Of a DNA stretch of 53,926 nt, positions 4,253 through 23,146 are shown piece by piece. The notes below the pieces were generated by a model. It was not told where the DNA came from. It did no database searches and worked only from the letters and a program-made list of their open reading frames with translations. Both the position numbers and the translations under genes were made by a program. This stretch comes from an uncultured Oscillibacter sp. GTDB lineage: Bacteria > Bacillota > Clostridia > Oscillospirales > Oscillospiraceae. Numbering within the stretch: position 1 is the stretch's first letter; each line of letters opens with the position of its first letter. The stretch covers positions 1 through 53,926 of the forward strand of contig CANDBG010000012.1 of assembly GCA_947382875.1 (NCBI GenBank). The letters run 5' to 3'.

Positions 4253-5237
4253 GTCCGGGCAGTGCGCCGCCGACAGACTGCGGAAGCGCTTCAAAAAGCG
4301 TTTGCAGGTAGCCGGAAAGCTGAGATTCCATTTCTTCGCCGGAAATGCAGACGATGTTGCAATAAGGCAGCGCCTTTTCCGCAACCGCCGCCTCAATAAT
4401 GCCCAGTTCTCCGATGCGGAATGCGGCGTCCGCCGGGTTGGCGTTCACCCAGGCCACCGAGTCCGCGTAGTCGTTCAGGAGGATTTCCACCGCCTCCGGA
4501 TGTTCCTCCGCAAAGCTCTTGCGGATGGCCGCAACACCCGTAATCATGGCGGAACCGTTATCCAGGCTCTGCCATTCTTCCGTGAGGTCCAGAGCAACCC
4601 GCAGGGTATCCTGTTTCGTTTGGGCGACGGTGACAAAGGGCTGGGGCAGCAGCGCCGCAGAAGCCGTACCCGCCGCCAGAGCCGCCACGCACTCCGCGTG
4701 TTCGCTTTTCCAGTCGATGGTTACATCGGTATCCGGATCCAGACCGTTCTGCTGAAGCAGGTAGCGCAGGCCAAACTCCGGCGTGGACCCTTTGCCGGCG
4801 GCGACGATGGTTTTTCCGGCCAGGTCGGCCATGGAGTGAATGGCATCTCCGTTTTCGACGATATAAAGAACGCCCAGGGTGTTCACCGCCAGACAGAGAA
4901 CTTCGCCCTCCGTCTGGTTGTACAGCACAGACGCCAGATTTGCCGGGACGCAGACAACATCCAGGTCGCCTTTTATAAACGCCGGAGTCAGCTCGTCGGC
5001 GGAACCGGCCAAGGTGAGTTCATAGGCTTCCATTCCGTCCAGATTGACCATTCCCATTGCCGTGGGGCCTTTCAGCGCGCCAATGCGGACGGTCACAGAT
5101 TCCGGAACCGGTTCTTCCGCCGGGGGTGTTTCCGGCTCCTGTACGTCAGCCGGTTCCTCCGGAGACGCTGGCGTCTGGCCGCAGGCGGCCAAGGACAAAA
5201 TCAGCAGCAGTGCAAGTAAATGTTTCCAGAATTTCAC
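4230..5237 (-). CDS. ABC transporter substrate-binding lipoprotein (NMT1/NrtA-like)
   Basis: 335 residues if started at the GTG at 5237 (VKFWKHLLALLL), which has ACGAGG ten bases upstream; TTG at 5243 or 5261 are alternatives. The N-terminus is a lipoprotein signal ending LSLAAC, followed by a Pro/Glu-rich spacer. The body has the ABC_NMT1 pattern: VRIGALKGPTAMGMV near residue 55, GDLDVVCVPANLA, and AGKTIVAAGKGSTPE. This class carries nitrate, sulfonates, thiamine precursors or other small molecules; the ligand cannot be named here. It is the second gene of an operon that begins with a TM1266-type regulator (26 bases upstream). Confidence 0.9.
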   Translation of the reverse strand: MKFWKHLLALLLILSLAACGQTPASPEEPADVQEPETPPAEEPVPESVTVRIGALKGPTAMGMVNLDGMEAYELTLAGSADELTPAFIKGDLDVVCVPANLASVLYNQTEGEVLCLAVNTLGVLYIVENGDAIHSMADLAGKTIVAAGKGSTPEFGLRYLLQQNGLDPDTDVTIDWKSEHAECVAALAAGTASAALLPQPFVTVAQTKQDTLRVALDLTEEWQSLDNGSAMITGVAAIRKSFAEEHPEAVEILLNDYADSVAWVNANPADAAFRIGELGIIEAAVAEKALPYCNIVCISGEEMESQLSGYLQTLFEALPQSVGGALPGHDFYYGA

Positions 5238-5263
5238 AATCAATGAACCTCGTTTCTCCAAAG

Positions 5264-5521
5264 TTATTTCGTATCTTCCTGGGGTGCGTAGACGGTTTTG
5301 GCCGTAATCCCTTCCAGGCGGCCGATTTTGCCCGAAAGGGCGGAAATACGGTTTGCCGGAGCTTGCAGGGCAACGCTGATGATACGGAACCCCTGCTCCC
5401 GGCAGGGAATGCCCATACGGCCCAGCACACAGTCTTCGTACTCGTGCAGCAATTCATTCAGCGCCGCAATTGACGCCGCTTCCCGCACGATAATTGCCAA
5501 AACAGCAATTCGGGTTTCCAT
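5264..5521 (-). CDS. TM1266-family putative iron-only hydrogenase system regulator
   Basis: 85 residues from an ATG at 5521 with an ideal AAAGGAGG. It matches the small ferredoxin-fold TM1266 family: METRIAVLAIIV start, LNELLHEYEDCVLGRMGIP, IISVALQAPANRISALSGKIG and the closing TAKTVY. Such proteins resemble NikR C-terminal/ACT-like domains and are usually found near [FeFe]-hydrogenase maturation genes, which are absent here. Instead it leads an operon with an ABC importer, suggesting the importer serves hydrogenase or metal-cofactor metabolism. That link is inference from position. Confidence 0.9.
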   Translation of the reverse strand: METRIAVLAIIVREAASIAALNELLHEYEDCVLGRMGIPCREQGFRIISVALQAPANRISALSGKIGRLEGITAKTVYAPQEDTK

Positions 5522-5552
5522 ACTTGGGTACCTCCTTTCCTGAAAAATACAA

Positions 5553-5618
5553 TCAAAACAACCCCTGCCATCCGGCAGAGGCTGCAGCCGTGAACCGCAC
5601 AGGAATTTCCATGCGCAT
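5553..5618 (-). CDS. Possible 21-residue upstream ORF
   Basis: AGAGAGGAGG precedes an ATG at 5618 by about three to nine bases (two in-frame ATGs), giving MRMEIPVRFTAAASAGWQGLF and a TGA at 5553, 32 bases before the TM1266-type gene. Good ribosome site and position suggest a leader peptide for the operon; the sequence has no recognised family, so it may be chance. Confidence 0.3.
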   Translation of the reverse strand: MRMEIPVRFTAAASAGWQGLF

Positions 5619-5730
5619 TTGCCTCCTCTCTTCCGGCGTGGAACAAAGCCTTGCCGTCAGTGCAGCGGACGTTTTTCTGTGAGAATCCGCGGACCGGTCA
5701 GACATTCTTTCCGGCGGCGGTTTGTGTTTG

Positions 5731-6069
5731 TCAGACTTCTTTGATTACGGTCAAAAGCATTTTGAAGGGCGTAATCGCGTGGAGGGCGCAGGGAACGCCC
5801 GCAGGCAGAACAATGGCATGACCAGCCGTCACCCAATGGACCGTGCCGTCAATGGTGACTTCAGCTTCGCCGTCGAGGACGTGCGCCATGGCGTCTCCGG
5901 GCGCAGCGCGGGCGCTGAGGCCCTCCCCGGCGTCAAAGGCGAGGAGCGTCAGGCTGGCGTCGGGACGCCGCGTCAGGGACTTGCAGACCACTTTGCCCGT
6001 TTCATATTCCACTTCCTCCGTCAGACTGAGTACCCTGCCATGAGGAATATTTTGAATCAAGTCTTCCAT
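5731..6069 (-). CDS. Cupin domain-containing protein
   Basis: 112 residues from an ATG at 6069 with AAAGGAG upstream. A single conserved beta-barrel cupin is indicated by RPDASLTLLAFDAGEGLS, the turn HVLDGEAEVTIDG (residues ~64-76) and LPAGVPCALHA (residues ~88-98). Only one clear metal-site histidine of motif 1 is kept, with His again in motif 2, so metal binding is uncertain. Small single-domain cupins of this size are usually binding or unknown-function proteins. It is followed on the same strand by nothing for 200 bases and preceded 22 bases upstream by the membrane protein gene, with which it is probably co-transcribed from the promoter at 6600-6628. Confidence 0.88.
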   Translation of the reverse strand: MEDLIQNIPHGRVLSLTEEVEYETGKVVCKSLTRRPDASLTLLAFDAGEGLSARAAPGDAMAHVLDGEAEVTIDGTVHWVTAGHAIVLPAGVPCALHAITPFKMLLTVIKEV

Positions 6070-6091
6070 ATGAATCTCCTTTGGAGACGTT

Positions 6092-6535
6092 TTATTTCTT
6101 GCGGGATTTCCAAAAGCTGTAAACAACTCCGGCAACCGACAGGAACAGCATACACAGCCAAAAGATGCCTTTGCGGTTTGACGAATGCAGAAAAAACACA
6201 AACGTCAGGCCGCCCGACGCAAGCGCAAAAAACAAAAGAAGCAGTACCTCAAGCCGGCGGGCTTGTGTTTGACTTCGGGCGAAGCAGCCAATCAGGAAGG
6301 TCCCGAAAAAGCTGACGGTCAGCACGCCGGTCAGGGAGATTTGGTTTAATATTTGCAATGTGTAGCTTTGCAATTCATAGACATTGAGAATTCCGGCGTC
6401 GCGCACCTGGTTATAGTCTTGAATGATTATCCATAAATACAAAAGCTGCAAAAGGCCCGCAGCGAAAACGAACCATTTGTGCCTTGGACGCTTCCAGTAG
6501 ACGAAATCCGCACGCTTTTCCTCTGAATGACGCAT
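6092..6535 (-). CDS. Small membrane protein, four predicted helices, unknown
   Basis: 147 residues from the ATG at 6535 (MRHSEEKRADFVYW), preceded by AGGAG; a longer frame to 6703 crosses the divergent promoters and was rejected. Hydrophobic segments are WFVFAAGLLQLLYLWIII, LTGVLTVSFFGTFLIGCF, VLLLLFFALASGGLTFVFF and IFWLCMLFLSVAGVVYSF, ending in a basic RKK tail. No family recognised. It probably forms an operon with the downstream cupin gene. Confidence 0.75.
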   Translation of the reverse strand: MRHSEEKRADFVYWKRPRHKWFVFAAGLLQLLYLWIIIQDYNQVRDAGILNVYELQSYTLQILNQISLTGVLTVSFFGTFLIGCFARSQTQARRLEVLLLLFFALASGGLTFVFFLHSSNRKGIFWLCMLFLSVAGVVYSFWKSRKK

Positions 6536-6599
6536 CGTTTTTCTCCTGTTCACTCCGCAGATAAAAGCCCCTTCGCATTTTTCAAAAAGAATACTCTTT

Positions 6600-6628
6600 A
6601 TTATAGCAGGAGTTTTTGGAAAGAACAA
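6600..6628 (-). promoter_or_regulatory. Sigma-A type promoter for 6535 (minus)
   Basis: On the minus strand TTGTTC (6623-6628) and TATAAT (6600-6605) are separated by 17 bases, 65 bases upstream of the membrane protein start. It is back to back with the plus-strand promoter at 6639-6667. Confidence 0.6.
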
Positions 6629-6638
6629 GAAAAAAAGA

Positions 6639-6667
6639 TTGATTCTTTTTTCACAACAGACTATAAT
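6639..6667 (+). promoter_or_regulatory. Sigma-A type promoter for DUF1576 gene
   Basis: TTGATT (6639-6644) and TATAAT (6662-6667) with a 17-base spacer, 37 bases before the TTG start at 6705. The two divergent -35 regions are only ten bases apart, so they may compete or share control. Confidence 0.7.
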
Positions 6668-6704
6668 AAAATAAACAAATCGTATCGGCGGGAGATGATG
6701 CAAT

Positions 6705-8102
6705 TTGCATAATCGTTACGAAAAAATTTTTCCGGCAACCATCAGTTTTTCCTTCGGCCTGATTTTCCTGGGCTTCTGCCTGGAAAAACCGATAGACATC
6801 ATGTGGGGCCTCTACCACATTGTCTCCATGCAGGACCTCCTGATTACCGACTACGTTTCCATCGGCGGCCCGGGCGCCGCGCTGATCAACGCCGGCATCG
6901 TCACCATCATCTCCATCTGCATCATCAAAATCTCCGGCGACCCCTTCAACGGTTTTACCATCGTGGAAATGGGCCTGATGGCCGGATTCTCGCTCTTTGG
7001 CAAAAATTTCATCAACATCTGGCCGATTATTCTGGGTACCTGGCTCTATGCCCACTACCGCAAGGAACCGTTTTCAAAGCACGCTTCCGTAGCCCTGCTG
7101 TCGACCTCCCTGGCCCCGCTGGTAAGCTATATGTCGCTGGGCAGCATTCATGCCAGTATTTGGATGGGAACGGCAACCGGCGTTTGCATTGGCTTCATTC
7201 TGCCCTCGCTTTCGTCCTACACCTACAAAATTCAAAACGGCATGAACCTGTATAACATGGGGTTTGCCTGCGGACTGTTCGCCATGATGATCGTACCGGT
7301 TTTAAGCGCCTTTGGCGACAGCCCGGACTCCGTTCTCTACTGGGCGACGGGCTACAACCTCCGTTTTTCGTTCGTGCTGACGCTGCTCTGCATGATTTTA
7401 ATAGTGTTGGGTCTGTTTGGCACAGGACAGCCGGTCTGGGCCGTCTGGGCGGGCTATCGGCGTCTGCTGTCCACCACGGGCCGCGCTCCCAGTGATTACC
7501 TGCGGATGTTCGGCGCGGGACCGGTGCTGATCAACATGGGCGTTAACGGACTGATCGGTATGGGCTATGTTCTGATCATAGGCGGCGACCTGAATGGTCC
7601 GACGCTGGGCGGTATTTTTACCATCATGGGCTTTTCGGCCTTCGGCAAGCATGTTTTTAATATTTCGCCGGTAATGCTGGGCGTGTTCGTCGGCGCTTAC
7701 GGAATGCATCATACGCCGGATTATCCGTCCCTTCAGCTGGCGGGCCTGTTCGGCACGTGCCTTGCGCCGATTGCGGGCTATTTCGGATGGCCCTTCGGCA
7801 TTCTGGCGGGGTTCATTCACTCCTGTCTGGTGCTGCAAACCGGCGGGCCGGTGGCGGGTCTCAACCTGTACAACAACGGTTTTTCCGGCGGCCTGATTGC
7901 GATTGTGCTATACCCCACAATTATGGCAATCTGGCGCAAGGGACGCCTTACGCTGCAAGATAAGGACTATTACGATCTGTTTGAGGAGAGCGATCCGATT
8001 GACACCTCGTCGTGGCGCACAAGCAAGAGTACAGCCATGCGGGAAAAAAAGAAAGCGGAGGAGGAAGCGGAACAAGATTCCAGTTCCACGCCGGAGAATT
8101 AA
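6705..8102 (+). CDS. DUF1576 domain-containing multi-pass membrane protein
   Basis: 465 residues from a TTG at 6705 with GGGAGA nine bases upstream; the nearby ATGs at 6696 and 6699 run into a stop. It has roughly ten to twelve hydrophobic segments and a clear internal duplication: GDPFNGFTIVEMGLMAGFSLFGKNFINIWPIILG in the first half parallels GDLNGPTLGGIFTIMGFSAFGKHVFNISPVMLG in the second, each a conserved half-repeat of the DUF1576 family (segments quoted in parts). The C-terminal ~45 residues are charged and cytoplasmic, rich in Lys and Glu. DUF1576 proteins are presumed transporters, but no substrate is established. It has its own promoter. Confidence 0.9.
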   Translation: MHNRYEKIFPATISFSFGLIFLGFCLEKPIDIMWGLYHIVSMQDLLITDYVSIGGPGAALINAGIVTIISICIIKISGDPFNGFTIVEMGLMAGFSLFGKNFINIWPIILGTWLYAHYRKEPFSKHASVALLSTSLAPLVSYMSLGSIHASIWMGTATGVCIGFILPSLSSYTYKIQNGMNLYNMGFACGLFAMMIVPVLSAFGDSPDSVLYWATGYNLRFSFVLTLLCMILIVLGLFGTGQPVWAVWAGYRRLLSTTGRAPSDYLRMFGAGPVLINMGVNGLIGMGYVLIIGGDLNGPTLGGIFTIMGFSAFGKHVFNISPVMLGVFVGAYGMHHTPDYPSLQLAGLFGTCLAPIAGYFGWPFGILAGFIHSCLVLQTGGPVAGLNLYNNGFSGGLIAIVLYPTIMAIWRKGRLTLQDKDYYDLFEESDPIDTSSWRTSKSTAMREKKKAEEEAEQDSSSTPEN

Positions 8103-11061: not shown

Positions 11062-11484
11062 TTACCGCTCCTTTCGCCGCCGTCCCGCTGCGAGGCCGGC
11101 GCCTCCCAGCAGAATGGCGAAATCCGCCAGATTGTATACGTACCAGTCCCAGGGCTCCGGCAAACGCGGGAACTGCACATAATCACATACCGCGCCATGA
11201 CGGACCCGTTCCCACAGGTTGCTTGCGCCGCCGCCCAGCACGAGTCCCGCGCCCAGGGGGTGACGCCGCCGGGCTGTCCAGACGGCCCCCAGCGCCGCCG
11301 CAGACGCGCCCTCAATGAGCTTTGCCGGAAGCGGCAGACCGAAGGCTGCTCCACGATTGCGCAGGTCCGTCAGGCGGACGCGCCCGCCGCAGAAGTCCGC
11401 TTCCCGACGGCTGGTACGGTCCAGATACCACCGCAGGGCCGTGCAGGACCCGAACACCGCGGCGGCGGTGACAAGTGTTTTCAT
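11062..11484 (-). CDS. Signal peptidase II (LspA)-like protein
   Basis: 140 residues; the ATG at 11484 overlaps the stop of the GTPase gene (ATGA), indicating coupling. The LspA pattern is present: NRGAAFG near residue 43, GGGASNLWERVRHGAVCDY near residue 83, and YNLADFAILLGG near residue 117, which keep the two catalytic aspartates (CDY and NLAD). The usual IDR is WER. It is a short and diverged member with about four membrane helices and a basic C-terminus. LspA cleaves prolipoprotein signal peptides at the membrane. It may be a second, specialised copy, since typical housekeeping lspA sits beside rluD rather than here. Confidence 0.85.
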   Translation of the reverse strand: MKTLVTAAAVFGSCTALRWYLDRTSRREADFCGGRVRLTDLRNRGAAFGLPLPAKLIEGASAAALGAVWTARRRHPLGAGLVLGGGASNLWERVRHGAVCDYVQFPRLPEPWDWYVYNLADFAILLGGAGLAAGRRRKER

Positions 11485-14126
11485 GGATGTTTCTCCTTTT
11501 CCCGGGCCGCCTTTTCCATCGCCGCCCGAAGCGCGCCGTGACTGCGGCGGTTGTTGGCCTGCAGAGCCGCGGCAATTTGCCCCTGAACCTGTTCCACTTC
11601 GTCCCGAAACCCCGCCGCCGATACCCGTAAGGCGCCATGGCCTAAGATAATGAGCTGTTCCGGGCCGTCGGACGTGGCCACCTTGACCCGGTGCTTCCGG
11701 CCGATTTCGTAGGTGGCGCGTTCGATGTAAGCGTCGGCGGTTTCGGCCTCTTTCGTGTAAACGACATGAATGTTATGGCAGGTCTCTACGGAACCCTTGC
11801 CCCCCTGAACCTTGTACGCGTCAAAGACGACAATGACCTCGCATTTGCGGCAGCCCTGGTAGTTGCAGAGAATGTCGCAGAGGGCCTTACGGGCGGCGTC
11901 GAGGTTGTCCCTGGCAATGGCTTTCAGCTCGTCCCAGGCGAAAATAATGTTGTAGCCGTCCACCAGAAGGTACTCCGGACCGGCAGGCGTTTCCGGAATT
12001 CTGCGGGACGCGGAGGCCTCCGCCGCCGGACGGCGCGGCGCTTTCGGCGGAAGAAAATCACGCCTCCGGACGGGGCCGTAGGTTCGTTCAAAAATGGCCT
12101 GCAGTTCCTTATCCTGTTCGATGGTTCCCGCGTAGGTCTCCGAACGACGGAAAACCGGGGGTTCGTCGGGAAGCGGTTCCGGTTCGTTCCAGCGTAAGCC
12201 GCTGTCCACGTGGGCGTGGCGCGGGACCTCGTTCCATTTTACCGTGTGCCCCGCGCCGTGGGAACAGAACACGGAATCCGCCGGGTTTTCCACGTCCCGT
12301 TCGGGGTCGTAGCCGCTGGCCGCAATGACGCTCTCTGCGTCCGGACAGGGACGGCAGCCCGCCGGGCGGCAGAGCAGGCGGCCCTGTCCGCGGGTATACA
12401 TGGCGACTTCCCGGGCATAGTCCCGCATGGCCGAAACGGGGGCTGTGCCGGTGAGTACGGCTTCTTCGCCCAGGGTTTCGGGAGGTTCCGTTTCGCCGTT
12501 CATGCGCTGGATGTCGCCCAGCGCGCGGCCGAGCTGATTGGCAGGAAGTTCCAGACGAAAGGCATACCAGGGTTCCAGCAGAACGCTCTCCGCCGACATC
12601 AAGCCTTGACGGACAGCACGGTACGTCGCCTGACGGAAGTCGCCGCCCTCGGTATGTTTTTCGTGGGCGCGGCCTGCGGTAAGGGTGATTTTCAGGTCCG
12701 TGACCGGCGAGCCGGTCAGGACGCCCGGATGTGGCTTTTCCAGCAAGTGCGCCAGAATCAGACGCTGCCAATGGCCGTCAAGCTGGTCCTCCGGACAGAT
12801 GGTTCCGATTTGCAGACCGCTTCCCCGCGGACCGGGTTCCAGAAGCAAGTGTACTTCCGCATAATGCCGCAGCGGCTCAAAGTGTCCCACACCCTCCACA
12901 GGTTTCGCAATGGTTTCCCGGTAAACGATACGCCCCGCGCCGAAGGAGACTTCCAGGCCGAAGCGTTCCCGCAGACGGCGCTGTAAAATTTCAATCTGCA
13001 CCTCGCCCATGAGCTGGACGCGGATGGATTGTCCATTCCAGACGACGTGCAGCTGCGGATCTTCCTCCTCCAGCTGCCGGAGCTGCTGAAGGGCCGTGTG
13101 AGGGTCCGCGTCGGTCTCCACCTGATACGCCAAAACCGGTTCCAAAACGGGCGTTGTCCAAGCGGTTTCAAAACCCAGGCCCTGGCCTGGCACGGTGTGC
13201 GTCAGGCCCGTCACCGCGCAGACGGTCCCAGCGGGAGCCTCGTCCGCCGGACGGAATTTCGCGCCGGAGTAAATCCGAATCTGGTCGGCCTTTTCCTCCC
13301 AGACGTCCTCCTCCGGCGTGTCCGGACGCCGGTTTGTCAGCGGGGTTTTTACCCGCAGCATGCCGCCGGTGACTTTCAGATAGGTTAACCGGTTTCCCCG
13401 TTCATCCCGCGCGACCTTGAAAATTCTGGCCCCGAATTCCGACGGATAATCCGGGACCGGCGAAAAACGTTCCAGACCGTCCAACAGGGCGTCCACGCCG
13501 TCAAGCCGGAGGGCGGAGCCAAAAAAACAGGGAAATAATTTTCGCTTCGCCGCCAGCCCGGACAGCTCGCCGTCGGAGAGGGACCCGTTTTCCAGATAAT
13601 GTTCCAGGGCGTCCTCGTCGCAGACCGCCGCTTCCTCTGCAATTTCCTCCGGCGGCGCGCCGAAGTCGATGCATCCGCCGTTTAACCGTTCTTTCAGCTC
13701 GGAGAGCAGCGCGGCGCGGCGATCCTGCGCGAGGTCCATCTTATTCACAAACAAAAATACCGGTACGCCGTACTGCTCCAGCAATCGCCAGAGCGTCCGG
13801 GTGTGGGCCTGCACGCCGTCGCTGCCGCTGACGACCAATATGGCGCAGTCCAAAACCCGCAAGGTCCGTTCAGCCTCGGCGGAAAAATCCACGTGTCCCG
13901 GCGTGTCCAGCAGGGTGACTTCCAAATCGCCCCAGGAGAATTCGGCTTGCTTGGAAAAAATTGTAATGCCCCGTTCCCGTTCGATGGCGTCGGTGTCGAG
14001 GAAGGCGTCGCGGTGGTCAACGCGGCCCAGCCGCCGGATGGCCCCGCTGTGATACAGCAGGGCCTCCGACAGCGTGGTTTTTCCCGCGTCGACATGGGCC
14101 AGGACGCCGATTACCAGTTTTTTCAT
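11481..14126 (-). CDS. TetM/EF-G-like ribosomal GTPase fused to a C-terminal NYN (YacP/Rae1-like) nuclease domain
   Basis: 881 residues from the ATG at 14126 (MKKLVIGVLAHVDAGKTT) preceded by AGAGGGG; an in-frame ATG at 14150 is less well placed. Residues 1-~650 follow TetM/EF-G order: G1 AHVDAGKTT, G2 around RERGITI, G3 DTPGHVDF, G4 VNKMD, then domains II-V with LMGEVQIEILQRRL. A Cys/His-containing segment (CRPCPDAE, FCSHGAGH) and a linker follow. Residues ~717-881 form a NYN domain like YacP: LLVDGYNIIFAWDEL, VVFDAYK, EAETADAYIE and VATSDGPEQ keep the acidic residues expected to bind metal. YacP of Bacillus (Rae1) cuts mRNA in the ribosomal A site, and TetM-like GTPases bind the same place, so a GTPase-delivered ribosome-associated nuclease is a reasonable inference. 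Tetracycline protection is possible but not shown. Confidence 0.93.
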   Translation of the reverse strand: MKKLVIGVLAHVDAGKTTLSEALLYHSGAIRRLGRVDHRDAFLDTDAIERERGITIFSKQAEFSWGDLEVTLLDTPGHVDFSAEAERTLRVLDCAILVVSGSDGVQAHTRTLWRLLEQYGVPVFLFVNKMDLAQDRRAALLSELKERLNGGCIDFGAPPEEIAEEAAVCDEDALEHYLENGSLSDGELSGLAAKRKLFPCFFGSALRLDGVDALLDGLERFSPVPDYPSEFGARIFKVARDERGNRLTYLKVTGGMLRVKTPLTNRRPDTPEEDVWEEKADQIRIYSGAKFRPADEAPAGTVCAVTGLTHTVPGQGLGFETAWTTPVLEPVLAYQVETDADPHTALQQLRQLEEEDPQLHVVWNGQSIRVQLMGEVQIEILQRRLRERFGLEVSFGAGRIVYRETIAKPVEGVGHFEPLRHYAEVHLLLEPGPRGSGLQIGTICPEDQLDGHWQRLILAHLLEKPHPGVLTGSPVTDLKITLTAGRAHEKHTEGGDFRQATYRAVRQGLMSAESVLLEPWYAFRLELPANQLGRALGDIQRMNGETEPPETLGEEAVLTGTAPVSAMRDYAREVAMYTRGQGRLLCRPAGCRPCPDAESVIAASGYDPERDVENPADSVFCSHGAGHTVKWNEVPRHAHVDSGLRWNEPEPLPDEPPVFRRSETYAGTIEQDKELQAIFERTYGPVRRRDFLPPKAPRRPAAEASASRRIPETPAGPEYLLVDGYNIIFAWDELKAIARDNLDAARKALCDILCNYQGCRKCEVIVVFDAYKVQGGKGSVETCHNIHVVYTKEAETADAYIERATYEIGRKHRVKVATSDGPEQLIILGHGALRVSAAGFRDEVEQVQGQIAAALQANNRRSHGALRAAMEKAAREKEKHP

Positions 14127-14154: not shown

Positions 14155-15024
14155 TCACAAGCCCCGCCAGGATTCCGGGCGCAGACGGCTCAAGTCGTGT
14201 TCGGCCCGGTCGATCTCCGCCAGCATGGCGGCCTTGTCTGCATTCAGAGTGCCCCTGAGAACCAGATAGTTGCTGGCATGGTTCATACGGAACACACTGC
14301 CGGGACTGTCCAGACGCTCCATCATTCGACGGGTTTCCTCCAAGACCTGGGGCTGTGTCAAAAGCTGAAATTCTCCCGTTTGTACCCAATCGTAAAGGGG
14401 CGTTTCCGGTTCCACCATCAGGGTCAGCATCCCGATATACTCCGGGTTCATGGCGTTGAAGGCGTCTGCGGTGTCCAGGGCGTGACGTTTCAGCAGTTCC
14501 GGTCCGCCCAGGCCCGTGATGGCCGTGACGGAAAGGGCAATTCCGCAGCTTCGGACCTTCTTTCCCATTTCGACAATTTCCGCGGCGGTATGGCCCTTCC
14601 GCATTCTGGTCAGAACCGCGTCGCAGCCGGATTCCAGGCCCATGTAAACCATGATTAAACCCTTTTCGCGCAGAGTCCGAAGCTCCTCCTCCGACCGAAT
14701 CCGGATGCTGGACGGAGATGCATAGCAAGTCACCTGACGGCACTCAGGGAAAAGGTCTCGAATGGAATCGAGGATGGCGTACAGTTCGGCGGCTTTGCGA
14801 ACCAGAGCGTCGCCGTCGGCGAGAAAGACTTTTTCCACATGACGGTACACGCCGCGGGCGATTTGGAAGTCTTCCAGAACTTCCTCCAGGGGCCGCAGAG
14901 CAAACCGTTTTTCCTTGTACATACTGCAAAACGCGCAGGTGTTATGACTGCATCCGTACGTGACCTGCACAATGAGGCTCCGCGCCTCGGAGGGCGGACG
15001 GTATACGCTTCCGTAATATCTCAT
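14155..15024 (-). CDS. Radical SAM protein
   Basis: 289 residues. The start ATG at 15024 overlaps the aminotransferase stop (ATGA), so translation is coupled; the longer frame from 15060 lies within that gene. The iron-sulfur site is the CSHNTCAFC motif near residue 30, with spacing typical of the 'GCSHNxCxFC' radical SAM subfamily, followed by FLADGDALV and VYMGLESG as SAM and beta-barrel motifs. The C-terminus (~80 residues) carries FRMNHASNYLVLRGTLNADK, a signature of this uncharacterised subfamily. It reductively cleaves SAM to start radical chemistry; the substrate is unknown. It is placed 28 bases before the GTPase-nuclease gene, so a tRNA, ribosome or amino-acid modification is conceivable, but this is inference. 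Confidence 0.9.
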   Translation of the reverse strand: MRYYGSVYRPPSEARSLIVQVTYGCSHNTCAFCSMYKEKRFALRPLEEVLEDFQIARGVYRHVEKVFLADGDALVRKAAELYAILDSIRDLFPECRQVTCYASPSSIRIRSEEELRTLREKGLIMVYMGLESGCDAVLTRMRKGHTAAEIVEMGKKVRSCGIALSVTAITGLGGPELLKRHALDTADAFNAMNPEYIGMLTLMVEPETPLYDWVQTGEFQLLTQPQVLEETRRMMERLDSPGSVFRMNHASNYLVLRGTLNADKAAMLAEIDRAEHDLSRLRPESWRGL

Positions 15025-16295
15025 ACACCCAGTTTTTCCAGCGCGGACATCTTTAAACACAGGCAGAAAATGGAAATTGCCTGTTTCAGCTCCTCCACCG
15101 GCGGCAGCGACGGCGCCAGACGAATATTGCTGTCCTGGGGGTCTTTGCCATAGGGGAAGGTTGCGCCCGCGCCGGTCATGGTCACGCCCGCCTCACGGCA
15201 AAGCTCCCAGGTGCGCCGCGCGGTGCCCGGCATGGCGTTGAACGAGACAAAATAACCGCCCTTGGGCCGCTTCCAGGAGGCAATGTTCAGCGGTGCGATT
15301 TCCCGGTCCAGCGCGTCCAGCACCGTGCGGAACTTGGGCCCCATAATCGCGGCGTGTTTTTTCATCAGTTCCAGGGTGTGCGCCTTGTTCTGGAGGTACA
15401 ATACGTGCCGCTGCTGATTCACCTTGTCAAAGCTGATGACCTGGGGCGTCAGCAGGTTCGACATATGCGCCATGTTGGCCTCGGAGCAGGCAAAGCAGGA
15501 CACGCCCGCGCCGGGAAGCGTCACCTTGGAGGTGGAGGCGAACTCAAATACCATGTCGGGGTGTCCGGCCTCCGCGCAAAGGGAAAGAATGTCCGGGAAC
15601 GGCACATAGTCGCCCTCAAATTCGTGGATGCAGTACGCGTTGTCCCACATGATGGTGAAATCCGGCGCGGCGGCGTTCAGGTTTGCAAAACGGCGGATGG
15701 TGTCTTCGGAATAGATCACGCCGTCGGGGTTGGAGTACTTGGGCACGCACCAGATGCCCTTTACCGTCGGGTCTTTCGCGTGCTTCTCCACCATGTCCAT
15801 ATCCGGACCGGTTTCGGTCATAGGAATGGTAATCAGCTCAAAGCCAAAGAACTCGGTAATTTTGAAATGCCGGTCGTAGCCGGGGGCGGGACAGAGCCAC
15901 CTGACCGTTTCTTCCAGACGCCAGGGGCGGGGGCTGTGAAGGAGACCATGGGTATAAGCCTTGGAAATGGTGTCAAACATGAGCTGAAGGCTGGCGTTGC
16001 CGCCGACAAAAACCTGTTCCGGCTGACAGTCCAGGATTTCCGCAAACAGCCGCTTAGCGGCGGGCAGACCGGACATTTCGCCGTAATTCCGCACGTCGAT
16101 TCCGTCGGACACATAGTCCTCGGGTTTCTGCATCAGGCTGAAAATGTCGCTGACCAAATCCAGCTGCGCCTTGCCAGGCTTGCCGCGGGCCATGTTCAGT
16201 GAAAGACCGCGGTCCTTCCAACCCTGGAATTCCTTTTGCAGCGCGGCGTATTCGGCGCGGCGTTCCTCCTGGGACATTTGGGCATACGTTTTCAT
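15021..16295 (-). CDS. PLP-dependent aminotransferase, type Ic aspartate aminotransferase family
   Basis: 424 residues from the ATG at 16295, nine bases after AAAGGA; ATG at 16301 is also in frame but only three bases away. Matches the PF12897 aminotransferase family: LSLNMARGKPGKAQLDLV, DVRNYGEMSGLPAAKRLFAE, VGGNASLQLMFD, PKYSNPDGVIYS, MWDNAYCIHEF, and the PLP lysine in FASTSKVTLPGAG (residue ~250). Characterised members transfer the amino group between aspartate and 2-oxoglutarate. It acts in the cytoplasm. It follows the lipoprotein gene by 20 bases and overlaps the radical SAM gene, so it belongs to the same transcription unit. Confidence 0.93.
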   Translation of the reverse strand: MKTYAQMSQEERRAEYAALQKEFQGWKDRGLSLNMARGKPGKAQLDLVSDIFSLMQKPEDYVSDGIDVRNYGEMSGLPAAKRLFAEILDCQPEQVFVGGNASLQLMFDTISKAYTHGLLHSPRPWRLEETVRWLCPAPGYDRHFKITEFFGFELITIPMTETGPDMDMVEKHAKDPTVKGIWCVPKYSNPDGVIYSEDTIRRFANLNAAAPDFTIMWDNAYCIHEFEGDYVPFPDILSLCAEAGHPDMVFEFASTSKVTLPGAGVSCFACSEANMAHMSNLLTPQVISFDKVNQQRHVLYLQNKAHTLELMKKHAAIMGPKFRTVLDALDREIAPLNIASWKRPKGGYFVSFNAMPGTARRTWELCREAGVTMTGAGATFPYGKDPQDSNIRLAPSLPPVEELKQAISIFCLCLKMSALEKLGV

Positions 16296-16315
16296 TGTCA
16301 TACATCCTTTCCGTT

Positions 16316-18102: not shown

Positions 18103-20349
18103 TTACGATTCTTCCAGCGTAATTTGTGATTCCGCCGTGTCCTCCTGGCGCAGCAGCGCGCCTGCTCCGGGCACTGATCGGGCACGGTAACGGCTCTGAT
18201 TTTTGATGGGTGTTTTCGCCAGCGGCGCGGCATTGTCCAGCGAGTATTTCGGCTTCATCGTCAGCACTGCCGCGCCCTGCGTGGTACGGGTTGTTTTCGG
18301 CGTCAGGAGGGAGCTGTGGAAAATCAGGCAGCGGGGTTCGGTGGAATAGACGGCCAATTCCTGTTCTTCGTCCACCCGGCACACGGCCCTGAGCGGCGAT
18401 TTGTCCGAATACGCGCCGGTAAGTTTCCGGCGGTTGGAGGCCGTCTGATAGGCTTTGATGTCCACCCGTGCCGCCTTGCCGTTCTCAAAGAAGAAGATCA
18501 GCCCGCCGGAGTAATCGCCTGGCAGAACCATATAGACCACATTTTCGCCGGGGTCCATACCCAGCTTGGCTGGGAGGTAATCGCCCAAGAGGCTGGCTTT
18601 GGAGTCGTCGAAGTCGCTGACGCGGGTTTTGTACACCTGACATTTGTCCGTAAAGAACATGACCTCCGCCGCGCTGGTGGTCTCGAAGGTCTGCCGGAGA
18701 CCGTCGCCCTCCTTGTACTTCTGCATGTTGCTCATGCGCAGGCTTTGGGGGGTAATTTTTTTGAAGTAGCCCTCCCGCGAGAGAAACACGTGAACCGGAA
18801 ATTGTTCCGGCGGTTCTTCCTCATAGGGGGCCGGAAGCTCGTGGGCATAGACAATGGTCGTCCGGCGGGGTTCGCCGTACTTTTTCGACGCCTGGTTCAG
18901 CTCGTCCAGAATGATTTTCCGCACCCGGCGGGGGTTTTGCAGAATATCATCCAGATCGTCGATTTCGTTTTGCAGTGCGTCGGTTTCCTGTAAACGCTTG
19001 AGAATGTATTCCTTGTTGATATTCCGCAGCTTGATTTCGGCCACGTACTCCGCCTGGATTTGATCAATTCCAAAGCCGATCATCAGGTTCGGCACGACGT
19101 CGGCGTCGGCGTCGGTTTCGCGGATAATCCGGATGGCTTTGTCAATGTCCAGCAAGATCCGTTTCAGGCCCTTGAGCAGATGGAGCTTGTCTTTCCGCTT
19201 GCCCAGGACGAAGTACACCCGCCGTTTGACGGACTCCGTACGCCAGGCGGTCCATTCCTCAATGATCTGCCGTACGCCAAGAACCTTGGGCATCCCTTCA
19301 ATCAATACGTTGAAGTTGCAGGAAAAAGTATCTTCCAGGGGCGTCTGACGGAACAGCTTCGTCATTACCTTATCCGGGTCCGCGCCGCGTTTGAGGTCGA
19401 TGGCGAGCTTCAGGCCGGAGAGGTCCGTTTCATCGCGCATATCGGCAATTTCCCGCGCCTTGCCGGATTTGATCAATTCCGCCACCTTGTCCAGAATGGC
19501 CTCGATGGAGGTGGAATAGGGAATTTCATAAATTTCGATCAGGTTTTCCGTCTTGACGTACCGCCACTTTGCCCGTACCCGGACGCTGCCCCGGCCGGAA
19601 TTGTAAATTTCCCGGAGGGCGTCAGGGTTGCAGATCAGCTCGCCGCCGGTAGGGAAATCCGGACCGAGCAAGGTTTCCTGCAAATCGCAGTTCGGGTTCT
19701 TGAGGAAGGCCGCCGTTGCCGCACAGACTTCTTTCAAATTAAAGCCGCAGAACTGCGACGCCATTCCGACGGCAATGCCGCTGTTGGCGGAAACGAGAAT
19801 ATTTGGGAACGTGGTGGGCAGAAGGACCGGTTCTTTCATTGTGTTGTCGTAGTTGTCAACAAAATCCACCGTATCGCTGTCAATGTCGCGGAAAAGTTCG
19901 CTGCAGATCGGCGTGAGTCTGGCCTCCGTGTACCGCGGCGCGGCGCAGGCCATATCACGGGAATAGTGCTTGCCGAAGTTGCCTTTTGAGTCGACAAAGG
20001 GCGTAAGAAGCGCGCCATAGCCCCGGGAAAGGCGGACCATGGTATCATAAATGGCGGCGTCGCCGTGGGGGTTGAGGCGCATGGTCTGTCCGACGATGTT
20101 GGCGGATTTGGTACGCGTTCCGGTGAGGAGTCCCATTTTATACATGGTGTACAGGAGCTTCCGGTGGGAGGGCTTGAAGCCGTCAATTTCCGGGATGGCC
20201 CGGGAAACAATCACCGACATTGCATAGGGCATATAATTGGTTTCGAGGGTGTCCGTAATGTTCTGTTCCACCACCGCCGCGTGGAGTCCCAGGACATTCG
20301 GGTTCTTGGCCTTGGGCTTTCCGCCCTCAGACGTTTTCTTTTTTGGCAT
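18103..20349 (-). CDS. Type IIA DNA topoisomerase subunit A (ParC/topoisomerase IV-like)
   Basis: 748 residues from an ATG at 20349, somewhat shorter than GyrA (~820+). The winged-helix core carries the catalytic tyrosine in CAAPRYTEARL (Tyr140). The quinolone-region motif is NPHGDAAIYDTMVR (residues ~93-106), with Ala98 where GyrA/ParC usually has Ser or Thr. The C-terminal domain is a partial beta-pinwheel (KITPQSLRMSN, TDKCQVYKTRV, FFFENGKAARV) without a clear GyrA-box, which fits ParC or a paralogue. With the subunit at 20934-22925 it forms an enzyme that relaxes or decatenates DNA in an ATP-dependent way. It follows the XRE gene by 23 bases. It is probably an additional copy beside gyrase, which is not in the window. 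Confidence 0.93.
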   Translation of the reverse strand: MPKKKTSEGGKPKAKNPNVLGLHAAVVEQNITDTLETNYMPYAMSVIVSRAIPEIDGFKPSHRKLLYTMYKMGLLTGTRTKSANIVGQTMRLNPHGDAAIYDTMVRLSRGYGALLTPFVDSKGNFGKHYSRDMACAAPRYTEARLTPICSELFRDIDSDTVDFVDNYDNTMKEPVLLPTTFPNILVSANSGIAVGMASQFCGFNLKEVCAATAAFLKNPNCDLQETLLGPDFPTGGELICNPDALREIYNSGRGSVRVRAKWRYVKTENLIEIYEIPYSTSIEAILDKVAELIKSGKAREIADMRDETDLSGLKLAIDLKRGADPDKVMTKLFRQTPLEDTFSCNFNVLIEGMPKVLGVRQIIEEWTAWRTESVKRRVYFVLGKRKDKLHLLKGLKRILLDIDKAIRIIRETDADADVVPNLMIGFGIDQIQAEYVAEIKLRNINKEYILKRLQETDALQNEIDDLDDILQNPRRVRKIILDELNQASKKYGEPRRTTIVYAHELPAPYEEEPPEQFPVHVFLSREGYFKKITPQSLRMSNMQKYKEGDGLRQTFETTSAAEVMFFTDKCQVYKTRVSDFDDSKASLLGDYLPAKLGMDPGENVVYMVLPGDYSGGLIFFFENGKAARVDIKAYQTASNRRKLTGAYSDKSPLRAVCRVDEEQELAVYSTEPRCLIFHSSLLTPKTTRTTQGAAVLTMKPKYSLDNAAPLAKTPIKNQSRYRARSVPGAGALLRQEDTAESQITLEES

Positions 20350-20700: not shown

Positions 20701-21033
20701 ATGGAGAAGCAAAAAGCAGGGCACAAACGTCTTTATATAACCATTTCAAGGGAAGAGCAACAGGCCGCACCATTTTTAGTGCGTTCGCTGGCGAATCCAA
20801 GAGAATCGAAAAAAGACGGAGAGACCGCAGCAGAAGCGGTTCTGTCATCCATGCAGGGGCGGACCTATGTGGCCCGCCCTGCCTCATGTCTTCCACCGCA
20901 CTTTCATGAAAAAGGTTCTGATGAAATATTCTATCATGAAATATCTGCCATTTCCAGATATTTGTACCCATTTTCGGCAATGTGGTCCTTGCGGCCCTGG
21001 AGGTTGTCGCCCAGAAGAAGGTCAAACACCTGA
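20701..21033 (+). CDS. Doubtful small gene divergent from the XRE regulator
   Basis: ATG at 20701 with AAGAGG nine bases upstream and the promoter 20647-20675. The first ~20 residues (MEKQKAGHKRLYITISREEQ) look like the start of a small ribbon-helix-helix or similar DNA-binding protein. From about residue 50 the frame passes through an intergenic GGGCGG hairpin repeat and then runs antisense to the topoisomerase B gene (from 20934), so the C-terminal half is unlikely to be functional. It could be a gene truncated by repeat insertion. Good expression signals, poor protein. Confidence 0.3.
   Translation: MEKQKAGHKRLYITISREEQQAAPFLVRSLANPRESKKDGETAAEAVLSSMQGRTYVARPASCLPPHFHEKGSDEIFYHEISAISRYLYPFSAMWSLRPWRLSPRRRSNT
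20857..20879. repeat. GGGCGG...CCGCCC hairpin repeat, copy 2
   Basis: GGGCGG (20857-20862) and CCGCCC (20874-20879) around ACCTATGTGGC. Similar to the hairpins at 10600-10621 and 24287-24308, each intergenic and with GGGCGGAC followed by a CA- or CT-rich loop. A short dispersed palindromic repeat. Confidence 0.5.
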
Positions 21034-22925
21034 GCCGTCCGCTCCACGTCCTCGGGCATTACCCGAATGAGCCGCCGGGTTTCCGGGTTCATGGTAGTGA
21101 GCCACATCATGTCCGGGTCGTTCTCGCCTAAACCCTTGGAGCGGTCGATTTTATACTTCTTTCCTTCCAGTTTTTTCACAATGTCATTTTTTTCCTTGTC
21201 GGAGTACGCAAACCAGGTTTTTTCCCCGCAGTTGATCTCAAACAGCGGCGTTTCCGCGATATAGACATACCCTTCCCGAATCAGCGTCGGCGTCAGGCGG
21301 TAAAGCATGGTCAGAACCAGCGTCCGAATCTGGAAGCCGTCAACATCGCCGTCGGTGCAGATGACCACCTTGTTCCACCGCAGGTTCGACAGCTCAAAGG
21401 ACGCCATATCCTTGACATGTTTGTTCTGCACCTCCACGCCGCAGCCAAGCACCCGCATCAAATCCATAATAATATCGCTCTTGAAAATCTTGCCGTAATC
21501 CGCCTTGAGACAATTCAGGATTTTCCCCCGGATCGGCATAATCCCCTGGTACTCGGAGTCCCGGGCGAGCTTGACGCTGCCCAGTGCGGAGTCACCCTCG
21601 ACGATGTAGATTTCCCGGCGGGCGATTTCCTTTGTCCGGCAGTCGACGAACTTCTGCACCCGGTTCGAAATATCAATGCTTCCGGAGAGCTTTTTCTTGA
21701 TGTTCAAGCGGGCTTCTTCAGCCTTTTCCCGACTGCGTTTGTTCAGCAGGACCTGTCCGGCAATTTTTTCGGCGTCGAAGTGATTCTCAATGAAATAGAT
21801 TTCCAGGTTTGAACGGAGGAATTCCGTCATAGCCTCCTGGACATATTTATTTGTAATGGCCTTTTTAGTCTGGTTTTCGTAGGAGGTCTGGGTGGAAAAG
21901 TTATTTGTCACCAGAACCAGGCAGTCCTCCACGTCAGCCCAGGTGACTTTGCTTTCGTTTTTCTGGTACTTGCCCTGCTGACGCAAATACCCGTCAATGG
22001 CGGACACAAACGCCGACTTGGAAGCCTTTTCCGGACTTCCGCCGTGTTCGAGCCAGCTGGAATTGTGGTAGTGCTCCACGACGTTTACTTTATTGGAAAA
22101 GCAAAATGCTGCTGACAGCTTTACTTTGTATTCCGGCTTGTCCGCACGGTCACGGCCCTTTTTCTCGGCCTGCCACTCCACCGGCGGCGTCAGCGTGTTT
22201 TCTCCCGCCAGCTCAGCCACATAGTCAGCGATTCCGTTCTCATAACAGAACTGGGTTTCTTCAAACTGTCCCGGTTCCGTCTCGCTGCGGAAGTGGAACG
22301 TAATGCCTGCATTCACCACGGCCTGCCGCTTCATGACGCCTGCGAAATATTCCGCCGGAATGGCAATGTCCGTAAAAACGTCCAGATCCGGGAGCCAATG
22401 GGTCCGGGTGCCGGTTTTCTTTGCCTGGCTTTTCGGCAGAGGCGTTTTTTGCAGTTCCCCCACGATCTCCCCACGCTCAAAGCGAAGACGGTATTCAAAC
22501 CCGTCGCGCCAGACGGTGACATCCATATAGCGGGAGGCGTACTGAGTGGCGCAGGAGCCGAGGCCGTTCAAACCCAGGGAATATTCGTAGTTGTCGCCGG
22601 AGACGTTATCATATTTGCCGCCGGCGTACAGCTCACAGAAAACGAGTTCCCAGTTGTAGCGCTGTTCTTTTTCGTTCCAGTCCACGGGACAGCCCCGGCC
22701 CGCGTCCTCCACCTCAACGCTGTGGTCTGCAAAGCGCGTGACGGTAATGGACGTGCCATGACCTTCCCGGGCTTCGTCGATGGAATTGGAGAGAATTTCA
22801 AAGACGGCGTGTTCGCAGCCGTCGAGGCCGTCGGAGCCAAAGATGACGCCGGGCCGTTTGCGGACCCGGTCCGCGCCCTTTAACGCGGAAATGCTGTCGT
22901 TGCCATAATCCTGTTTTTTTGCCAT
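20934..22925 (-). CDS. Type IIA DNA topoisomerase subunit B (ParE/topoisomerase IV-like)
   Basis: 663 residues from the ATG at 22925 (MAKKQDYGNDSISAL), GGAGG five bases upstream. The GHKL ATPase has VFEILSNSIDEAREG (Glu43, Asn47, Asp50) and SLGLNGLGSCATQ; the TOPRIM domain has IYIVEGDSALGSVK and VVICTDGDVDGFQIRTL, where most GyrB/ParE proteins read TDADVDG; KIDRSKGLGENDPD precedes the C-terminal part. ATP binding drives strand passage together with the A subunit at 18103-20349. The gene ends 330 bases before the XRE gene. It has its own promoter at 22992-23020. The unusual TDGDVDG and diverged insert after residue 230 set it apart from housekeeping GyrB. Confidence 0.93.
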   Translation of the reverse strand: MAKKQDYGNDSISALKGADRVRKRPGVIFGSDGLDGCEHAVFEILSNSIDEAREGHGTSITVTRFADHSVEVEDAGRGCPVDWNEKEQRYNWELVFCELYAGGKYDNVSGDNYEYSLGLNGLGSCATQYASRYMDVTVWRDGFEYRLRFERGEIVGELQKTPLPKSQAKKTGTRTHWLPDLDVFTDIAIPAEYFAGVMKRQAVVNAGITFHFRSETEPGQFEETQFCYENGIADYVAELAGENTLTPPVEWQAEKKGRDRADKPEYKVKLSAAFCFSNKVNVVEHYHNSSWLEHGGSPEKASKSAFVSAIDGYLRQQGKYQKNESKVTWADVEDCLVLVTNNFSTQTSYENQTKKAITNKYVQEAMTEFLRSNLEIYFIENHFDAEKIAGQVLLNKRSREKAEEARLNIKKKLSGSIDISNRVQKFVDCRTKEIARREIYIVEGDSALGSVKLARDSEYQGIMPIRGKILNCLKADYGKIFKSDIIMDLMRVLGCGVEVQNKHVKDMASFELSNLRWNKVVICTDGDVDGFQIRTLVLTMLYRLTPTLIREGYVYIAETPLFEINCGEKTWFAYSDKEKNDIVKKLEGKKYKIDRSKGLGENDPDMMWLTTMNPETRRLIRVMPEDVERTAQVFDLLLGDNLQGRKDHIAENGYKYLEMADIS

Positions 22926-22991
22926 AGTTCCTCCGAAACCGGCAGGTCCTGCGTCCAGGCTCCGCCGGTCAAATTCTTGTATGATTTGGAC

Positions 22992-23020
22992 ATTATAACA
23001 CAATCCGCGCACAGGTTCAA
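22992..23020 (-). promoter_or_regulatory. Sigma-A promoter for topoisomerase B-like gene
   Basis: On the minus strand TTGAAC (23015-23020), 17-base spacer, TATAAT (22992-22997), about 67 bases upstream of the start at 22925. Confidence 0.75.
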
Positions 23021-23146
23021 GTATTCCAGCGCGAAAGCTCATTTCCCTTCCTTTCCCGCCGGGACCCGCGCTTTTTCGAAAAAAGTTCTTGCGTAAAATT
23101 TCCCATAATTCGAGCGTCACCCGAAATTTTCCTTCCGGCAGCAGGG

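Follow-up and report, generated by a model that had tools for sequence, protein, structure and literature searches.

Layout of the fusion gene and its nuclease domain

We analysed a stretch of 53,926 nucleotides (the window), contig CANDBG010000012.1 of assembly GCA_947382875.1 from an uncultured Oscillibacter sp., and in particular one of its genes, whose product joins a translational GTPase resembling EF-G to a C-terminal NYN nuclease domain of the type of Rae1 (YacP) of Bacillus subtilis. Sequence comparison among genomes gave good support to a replacement of the free-standing Rae1 by this fusion. The gene occupies positions 11481..14126 of the minus strand, from an ATG at 14126 to a stop codon at 11481-11483, and encodes 881 residues with no internal stop; a long open frame was present in 94 fusion proteins, including that of the window. 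An earlier note on this DNA, made from its letters, had described one 881-residue frame here; its coordinates were correct, the strand being minus, and the motifs that it quoted for the GTPase and NYN halves were all found in the protein.

The Pfam search that the same note had proposed matched all the GTPase and EF-G domains as well as NYN_YacP, with EF-G_D2 just below its cut-off. The G domain (residues 5-221, 13464..14114; GTP_EFTU, expectation value, E, of 2.6e-52) was followed on the minus strand by EF-G domain II (231-310, 13197..13436; EF-G_D2, 25.3 bits, slightly under the 27-bit cut-off), domain III (333-396, 12939..13130; EFG_III), domain IV (398-512, 12591..12935; EFG_IV) with the subfamily loops GHFEPLRHYAE (414-424) and HTEGGDFR (491-498), and domain V (515-596, 12339..12584; EFG_C). 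The G motifs together with EF-G domains II to V placed the protein in the EF2 family of translational GTPases. Behind domain V came a C-terminal extension (597-640, 12207..12338; SVFCSHGAGHTVKWNEV and around), a largely disordered linker (641-719, 11970..12206) and the NYN_YacP or Rae1-type nuclease domain (720-877, 11496..11969). The full-length AlphaFold model had a mean predicted local distance difference test score (pLDDT) of 89.9 and a predicted template modelling score (pTM) of 0.71, with pLDDT below 50 at residues 655-667 and 688-709; EF-G and its relatives, in agreement with the assignment of domain II, were the top PDB structures among the best 50 matches of this model in Foldseek.

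The nuclease assignment was far above the level of chance, as judged from the sequence: NYN_YacP (PF05991) matched with E 3.2e-50 and 170.8 bits against a curated cut-off of 24.6, and the sole PDB matches of the C-terminal 165 residues at E of 0.01 or less were B. subtilis YacP/Rae1, 5mq8 and 5mq9 (E 9e-25). Modelled alone, the domain reached a pLDDT of 93.3; the first three PDB matches of this model in Foldseek were Rae1 (E 7e-11 to 1.8e-10), the next one having a value of 0.011, and its fold agreed with that of Rae1 (5mq9_A) to 1.7 Å over 137 columns. Both the Pfam and PDB matches and the predicted fold thus bore out the YacP-like NYN domain that the note had read at the C-terminus.

Conservation was evaluated in an alignment (A2) of the window protein and 76 fusion proteins from named genome records. 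The record search gave 80 fusion loci, the best of at least 591 relatives, and four of them (L085, L087, L107 and L110) were left out because they had no single long frame with the motif. The acidic and polar residues D723, N726, D769, D798, E802 and D820, which we take to be the NYN active site, were kept in 77/77 proteins, were also unbroken in a set of 18 fusion proteins from a draw of phylum genomes (see below), and were aligned with those of 20 free-standing Rae1 proteins. The acidic residues had been called intact in the note, a claim that variation among relatives could have undone, and they were invariant.

In sequence and fold, the domain was therefore like Rae1 of B. subtilis. The two differ in setting, because Rae1 is free-standing (a 181-residue PDB chain) and encoded in the rlmB-rae1 locus, whereas the fused domain lies behind a GTPase, in an 881-residue protein encoded elsewhere than in an rlmB-rae1-sigH locus. 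PIN and NYN folds act on many RNAs, and the domain might accordingly cut rRNA or tRNA, in maturation or in the decay of faulty ribosomes, with the GTPase as a targeting device. We consider this improbable, because two papers, in the parts cited here, describe Rae1, the closest homologue that has been characterised, as an A-site mRNA endonuclease (PMC6613710, PMC12320835), and because the fusion occurs where Rae1 has vanished, as follows.

Fusion and free-standing Rae1 across genomes

Two partly overlapping draws, of 299 genomes of the phylum and 245 of the class, were searched for both forms. The fusion was present in 18/299 genomes of the phylum draw (the match in G294 reached only residue 690 in this search, and its frame does contain NYN), and a NYN_YacP match was detected in 155/299, in 154 of them above the cut-off. 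All 18 fusion genomes had exactly one NYN_YacP match, located inside the fusion, whereas 137 of the 281 fusion-free genomes had a match (136 above the cut-off), a difference with a Fisher p of 2e-5 when kinship is ignored. In the class draw, 161/245 genomes had a NYN_YacP match; the length of the frame, listed for 149 of these 161, was at least 780 residues in 79, at most 220 in 64 and between these values in six.

No genome containing the fusion together with a free-standing Rae1 was found in the draws of 299 and 245. Four genomes of the class draw had two NYN_YacP matches: G612 with two fusions, and G615, G680 and G721 with a fusion and a partial match. The latter three were rejected as exceptions, since the second match was below the cut-off and covered only positions 3-49 of 166. 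It corresponded to a frame some 165 residues long whose start is partly NYN-like, present in addition to the fusion (L203, L202 and L201, respectively). The two fusion genes of G612 (L193 and L199) were different from each other, in a genome 61% complete, and represent either paralogues or a mixed assembly. Two free-standing Rae1 copies were found in G223.

Both forms were found, in different genomes, within five families (f58 in the phylum draw; f4, f182, f183 and f187 in both draws), suggesting that Rae1 was swapped for the fusion more than once. By their NCBI lineages, 79 of the 80 fusion loci, taken as the best of the relatives, belonged to Clostridia, mainly to Lachnospiraceae (28) and Oscillospiraceae (25), and the remaining one was filed under Chloroflexota in a record titled Thermoflexaceae bacterium. 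One fusion was located in a record called 'plasmid 12' of Monoglobus pectinilyticus (L204, NZ_OY725736.1, 517,814 bp) together with secA and spore-coat genes, so that this record looks like a piece of chromosome.

The locus of the free-standing gene was also compared. Clustering of the open reading frames around 20 free-standing rae1 genes gave cysS, mrnC and sigH in 19/20 loci, rlmB in 17/20 and thyX in 13, the names having been assigned by reading the sequences. In B. subtilis, yacO (rlmB) and rae1 adjoin and are co-transcribed, according to the part of PMC6613710 cited here. A match to rlmB was obtained in 17 of the 18 fusion genomes, and the order cysS-mrnC-(thyX)-rlmB-sigH was kept in 15, with rae1 gone from between rlmB and sigH. 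The gap between these two genes, measured from the ends of tblastn matches, was -5 to 345 bp in the kept loci and 542-753 bp in four controls, and a low-stringency search detected no rae1 remnant in the 15 kept loci (best E 3.2). The other three genomes (that of the window, G069, and G240, in which no rlmB match was found) were uninformative for the locus.

Intermediate stages were observed within a single genus (g330). Genome G543 had the rlmB-rae1-sigH order with an intact rae1 of 168 residues, and the fusion was not found in it at E 1e-40, whereas G512, G615, G680 and G721 had the fusion and no rae1 match at the locus at E 1e-4. In G615, G680 and G721 the gaps were of 164-246 bp and contained no rae1 remnant (best E 0.16). 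The gap of G512, from rlmB to sigH (L207, 2236-2855), was of 620 bp and contained a decayed rae1: this stretch was 71% identical to G543 (blastn E 3e-80) and was matched by a true Rae1 protein with E 4e-9, in a database made up of these gaps only. Aligned with rae1 of G543, the decayed copy covered 447 of the 507 coding bases at 74.3% identity and required 12 gaps, seven of them not multiples of three; it had four stops in 157 in-register codon positions, and its longest stop-free forward stretch was of at most 49 residues. In the flanking genes, identity was 81% and 85% and no gap broke the frame. One species of g330 thus had intact rae1 alone, one had the fusion and a decayed rae1, and three had the fusion with rae1 gone, which, from the sequences, looks like the displacement of a redundant rae1.

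The GTPase half, the linker and the neighbouring genes

In the GTPase half, K16 and D131 were found in 77/77 aligned proteins, H78 in 76/77 and N128 in 71/77, the other six having T. The first domain-IV loop was invariant (77/77) at H415, E417, P418, L419, H421, Y422 and E424, and the second at H491, T492, G494, G495, D496, F497 and R498, so that, in these sequences, both loops were conserved as strictly as the NYN acidic set; C621 in the C-terminal extension was likewise kept in 77/77. Three rows of the 18-protein set were exceptions at the loops: L019 had lost G494 and G495, and L014 and L015, fusions of one family (genomes G096 and G283), deviated at both loops and retained the NYN acidic residues. 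The GTPase half of these last two may be changing its role.

The linker varied from 63 to 147 residues among the 77 proteins, with a median of 80. Within it, residues 669-683 (12078..12122; ELQAIFERTY and before) formed a helix in the AlphaFold model, with a consensus of about DKELxxIFERTYG; E674 was conserved in 73/77, I678 in 75/77 and G684, just past the helix, in 66/77. This helix could be a docking element for the ribosome or for the GTPase of the same protein.

The earlier note had called this half TetM/EF-G-like and had cautioned against assuming tetracycline resistance from homology. The EF-G-type domains were real and the caution proved sound, whereas 'TetM-like' was too narrow for a separate clade with domain-IV loops of its own. 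The top NCBIfam model for the fusion was tet_protect (NF012153), with 390.4 bits against a cut-off of 775 that was passed by two TetM-type controls (L024, 876.4; L028, 819.2) and missed as well by an unfused relative of Bacilli type (411.5) and by another fusion (421.2). In domain IV, the TetM-type proteins L024, L025, L028 and L029 had the loop YYSPVSTPADF, where the window fusion had RAHEKHTEGGDF and most of the ten fusion rows displayed had RAHxKHTEGGDF or a near variant; in Tet proteins it is the domain-IV loops that dislodge tetracycline, as stated in the part of Atkinson 2015 cited here (PMC4342817). The same EF-G-type domains were present in TetM/TetO-type proteins, to which the fusion (compared with L024, L025, L028 and L029) was 32-33% identical; it differed from them in the loops, the C-terminal extension, the distance below the family cut-off, the clade and the added RNase. 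Proteins of the EF-G/EF-G2 type had an overall fold like that of the GTPase half and no NYN domain, and several weaker-scoring matches were counted in fusion genomes, in addition to the fusion.

A tree of 61 GTPases, obtained by a quick method, included 29 of the 94 available fused proteins and grouped these 29 in a single clade (Shimodaira-Hasegawa-like approximate likelihood ratio test, SH-aLRT, 96), which was joined by 18 unfused GTPases (SH-aLRT 99), with the TetM-type rows outside. The tree is thus consistent with the fused GTPase having arisen once, from a non-TetM GTPase. The unfused set came from 24 loci, of which L150 was dropped for having no frame with the motif and L151-L155 belonged to another clade. 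The six unfused GTPases displayed shared the domain-IV loops and the C-terminal extension with the fusions, and their chain ended before the linker. We infer that the 18 come from Bacilli, because the plasmid records containing relatives include Ligilactobacillus and Paenibacillus. A free-standing Rae1 was present in 18/18 genomes with an unfused GTPase, a count taken within these genomes.

One unfused relative, located at 4986-6920 of the Ligilactobacillus salivarius UCC118 megaplasmid pMP118 (L205), was about 49% identical over residues 1-647 and adjoined rpsN (S14); in L. salivarius it is found on plasmids, where its annotation as a tetracycline-resistance protein (TetM/TetW/TetO/TetS) is probably mistaken. 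Tetracycline-resistance labels are publicly attached to some fusions as well as to unfused Ligilactobacillus megaplasmid relatives, and the two fusions and one unfused protein that were scanned failed the cut-off.

That the fusion is a ribosomal protection protein against tetracycline or another drug, with the RNase as an extra resistance step, was suggested in Atkinson 2015 (PMC4342817). The EF-G/Tet type of the GTPase, the rank of tet_protect as best NCBIfam model and the TetM/TetW/TetO/TetS name given to relatives in some public plasmid records speak for it. The score of about half the cut-off (390 bits against 775), the replacement of the TetM loop and the position on the tree make it very unlikely; a TetM-type resistance protein was rejected on these three grounds, and resistance to tetracycline by the fusion was not supported by the sequence.

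Upstream of the fusion, on the same strand, lay genes for a radical SAM protein (14155..15060, PF04055) and an aspartate aminotransferase-like protein (15021..16301, PF12897, E 6e-151), and downstream one for a signal peptidase II (LspA)-like protein (11062..11484, Peptidase_A8, PF01252), whose start overlaps the stop of the fusion gene; the four frames overlapped or were 28 bp apart. The operon described in the earlier note was therefore real as to its members. However, none of the three is conserved beside the fusion: clustering of the neighbours within 6 kb of the 77 fusion loci gave no conserved partner among the 22 clusters listed, the largest (17 loci) consisting of mixed proteins that differed in position and length. 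Six window neighbours (the radical SAM, aminotransferase and LspA-like proteins, two unknown proteins and a LUD protein) were also searched against the other 76 fusion loci, of which 65 had at least 1 kb of flank upstream and 69 downstream, and gave two matches, both more than 8 kb from the fusion. A conserved operon partner as a clue to function was consequently rejected, and the operon says little about what the fusion does.

A stress or phage-defence factor that halts translation by cutting mRNA on ribosomes could in principle be built from a ribosome-directed RNase. This seemed exceedingly unlikely for the fusion, which gave no match to any PADLOC family at E of 0.001 or less, has no conserved neighbours in the 77 loci, and is nearly always present in one copy per genome, replacing Rae1 one-for-one; on the PADLOC result a defence system was rejected.

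Elsewhere in the window, a pair of type II topoisomerase genes was found on the minus strand (18103-20349 and 20934-23120), the first encoding DNA_topoisoIV subunit A and the second a product that looks, by reading, like a topoisomerase B subunit. A DUF1576 protein (6705-8102, plus strand, E 3e-98) shared its cluster with a protein near one other fusion (2/77 loci).

Proposed action of the fusion

The architecture itself has been known since 2015: in the part of Atkinson 2015 cited here (PMC4342817), Tet proteins of ten clostridial species, Tet-NYN fusions of Clostridiales with the same layout as that of the window, bear an NYN domain like that of YacP, and it is suggested, without experiment, that this may be a new mechanism of resistance. 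The fusions are filed there under Tet, whereas in our analysis the GTPase clades apart from the TetM type and the fusion replaces the free-standing Rae1. No other account of the fusion was found in a literature search whose scope excluded Leroy 2017 and Condon 2018 (Rae1 distribution), and the same search gave no earlier report of a GTPase clade apart from TetM, of the fusion replacing Rae1 one-for-one, of the linker helix or of a decayed rae1.

Given that the fusion occurs in genomes without a free-standing Rae1, its NYN domain most likely performs the job of Rae1, and the replacement of free-standing Rae1 also gives indirect support to a role of the fusion as a ribosome-directed A-site RNase. 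On balance we lean towards the reading that the fusion is the Rae1 of this Oscillibacter sp. and of many other clostridia, carried at the C-terminus of an EF-G-like GTPase through which its entry into the A site would be regulated; we infer that GTP hydrolysis is coupled to cleavage.

EF-G and TetM bind the A-site factor region of the ribosome. By analogy, the GTPase half would dock at the factor site when a ribosome has paused, has stalled or is bound by a drug and its A site can be entered, and domain IV would extend to the decoding centre; upon GTP hydrolysis this half would withdraw, and the tethered NYN domain would then enter the vacated A site and cut the mRNA, like free Rae1 in B. subtilis. 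The truncated complex could afterwards be rescued by transfer-messenger RNA (tmRNA), which was found in the Oscillibacter sp. genome of the window. As the NYN domain and domain IV would presumably be unable to occupy the same codon together, the two halves would have to act in turn over a long tether, or on neighbouring ribosomes.

A more specific form of this mechanism is tentative, and we hold it to be plausible rather than probable: a GTP-driven A-site nuclease in one polypeptide, whose EF-G-like half recognises an A site that is blocked or empty, clears it and leaves on GTP hydrolysis, handing the site to the tethered Rae1 domain, the cut in the mRNA then committing the complex to rescue. 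The fusion would have displaced the passive Rae1 repeatedly because entry had become active and gated.

The two halves could also be tethered and uncoupled, the fusion serving to keep Rae1 near ribosomes and co-expressed, the GTPase having a separate ribosomal job and the NYN domain cutting mRNA in the A site in the manner of free Rae1. The length and variability of the linker would suit such an arrangement, as would the existence of both halves apart, in the Bacilli-type genomes that have an unfused GTPase and, in all 18 checked, a free-standing Rae1. We think it rather unlikely, since the fused form is widespread in Clostridia and replaces Rae1 in several families, and since a helix conserved amid a variable linker hints at more than a passive tether.

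Several observations weigh against the coupled, regulated nuclease that we favour, or against the replacement behind it. The putative coupling of GTP hydrolysis to cleavage, like the reading as a whole, is drawn from sequences and models, and the AlphaFold model leaves the position of the NYN domain relative to the GTPase unfixed (pTM 0.71, disordered linker). In the genome of the window itself and in G069, a member of its family, rlmB is carried outside the usual locus, and no scar is visible there. NYN_YacP matches were absent from 144/299 genomes of the phylum draw; rae1 has thus been lost without the fusion too, and loss alone proves little. Kinship among the genomes inflates the statistics. 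Finally, a tree of NYN domains, used to ask whether the fused NYN arose once, neither supported nor rejected a single origin (approximately unbiased test, fused rows held together, p 0.44); the fused L098 was placed weakly among the free-standing Rae1, and the free-standing L122 and L123 among the fused rows.

If the reading that we favour is true, the fusion would rescue ribosomes or take part in mRNA decay with a GTPase motor of its own, a combination of which no experimental account was found in the literature search. A genus with species that have and species that lack the fusion offers a natural genetic experiment on how Rae1 reaches the A site, and with the fusion the idea that mRNA on the ribosome is cut under the control of GTP becomes open to test.

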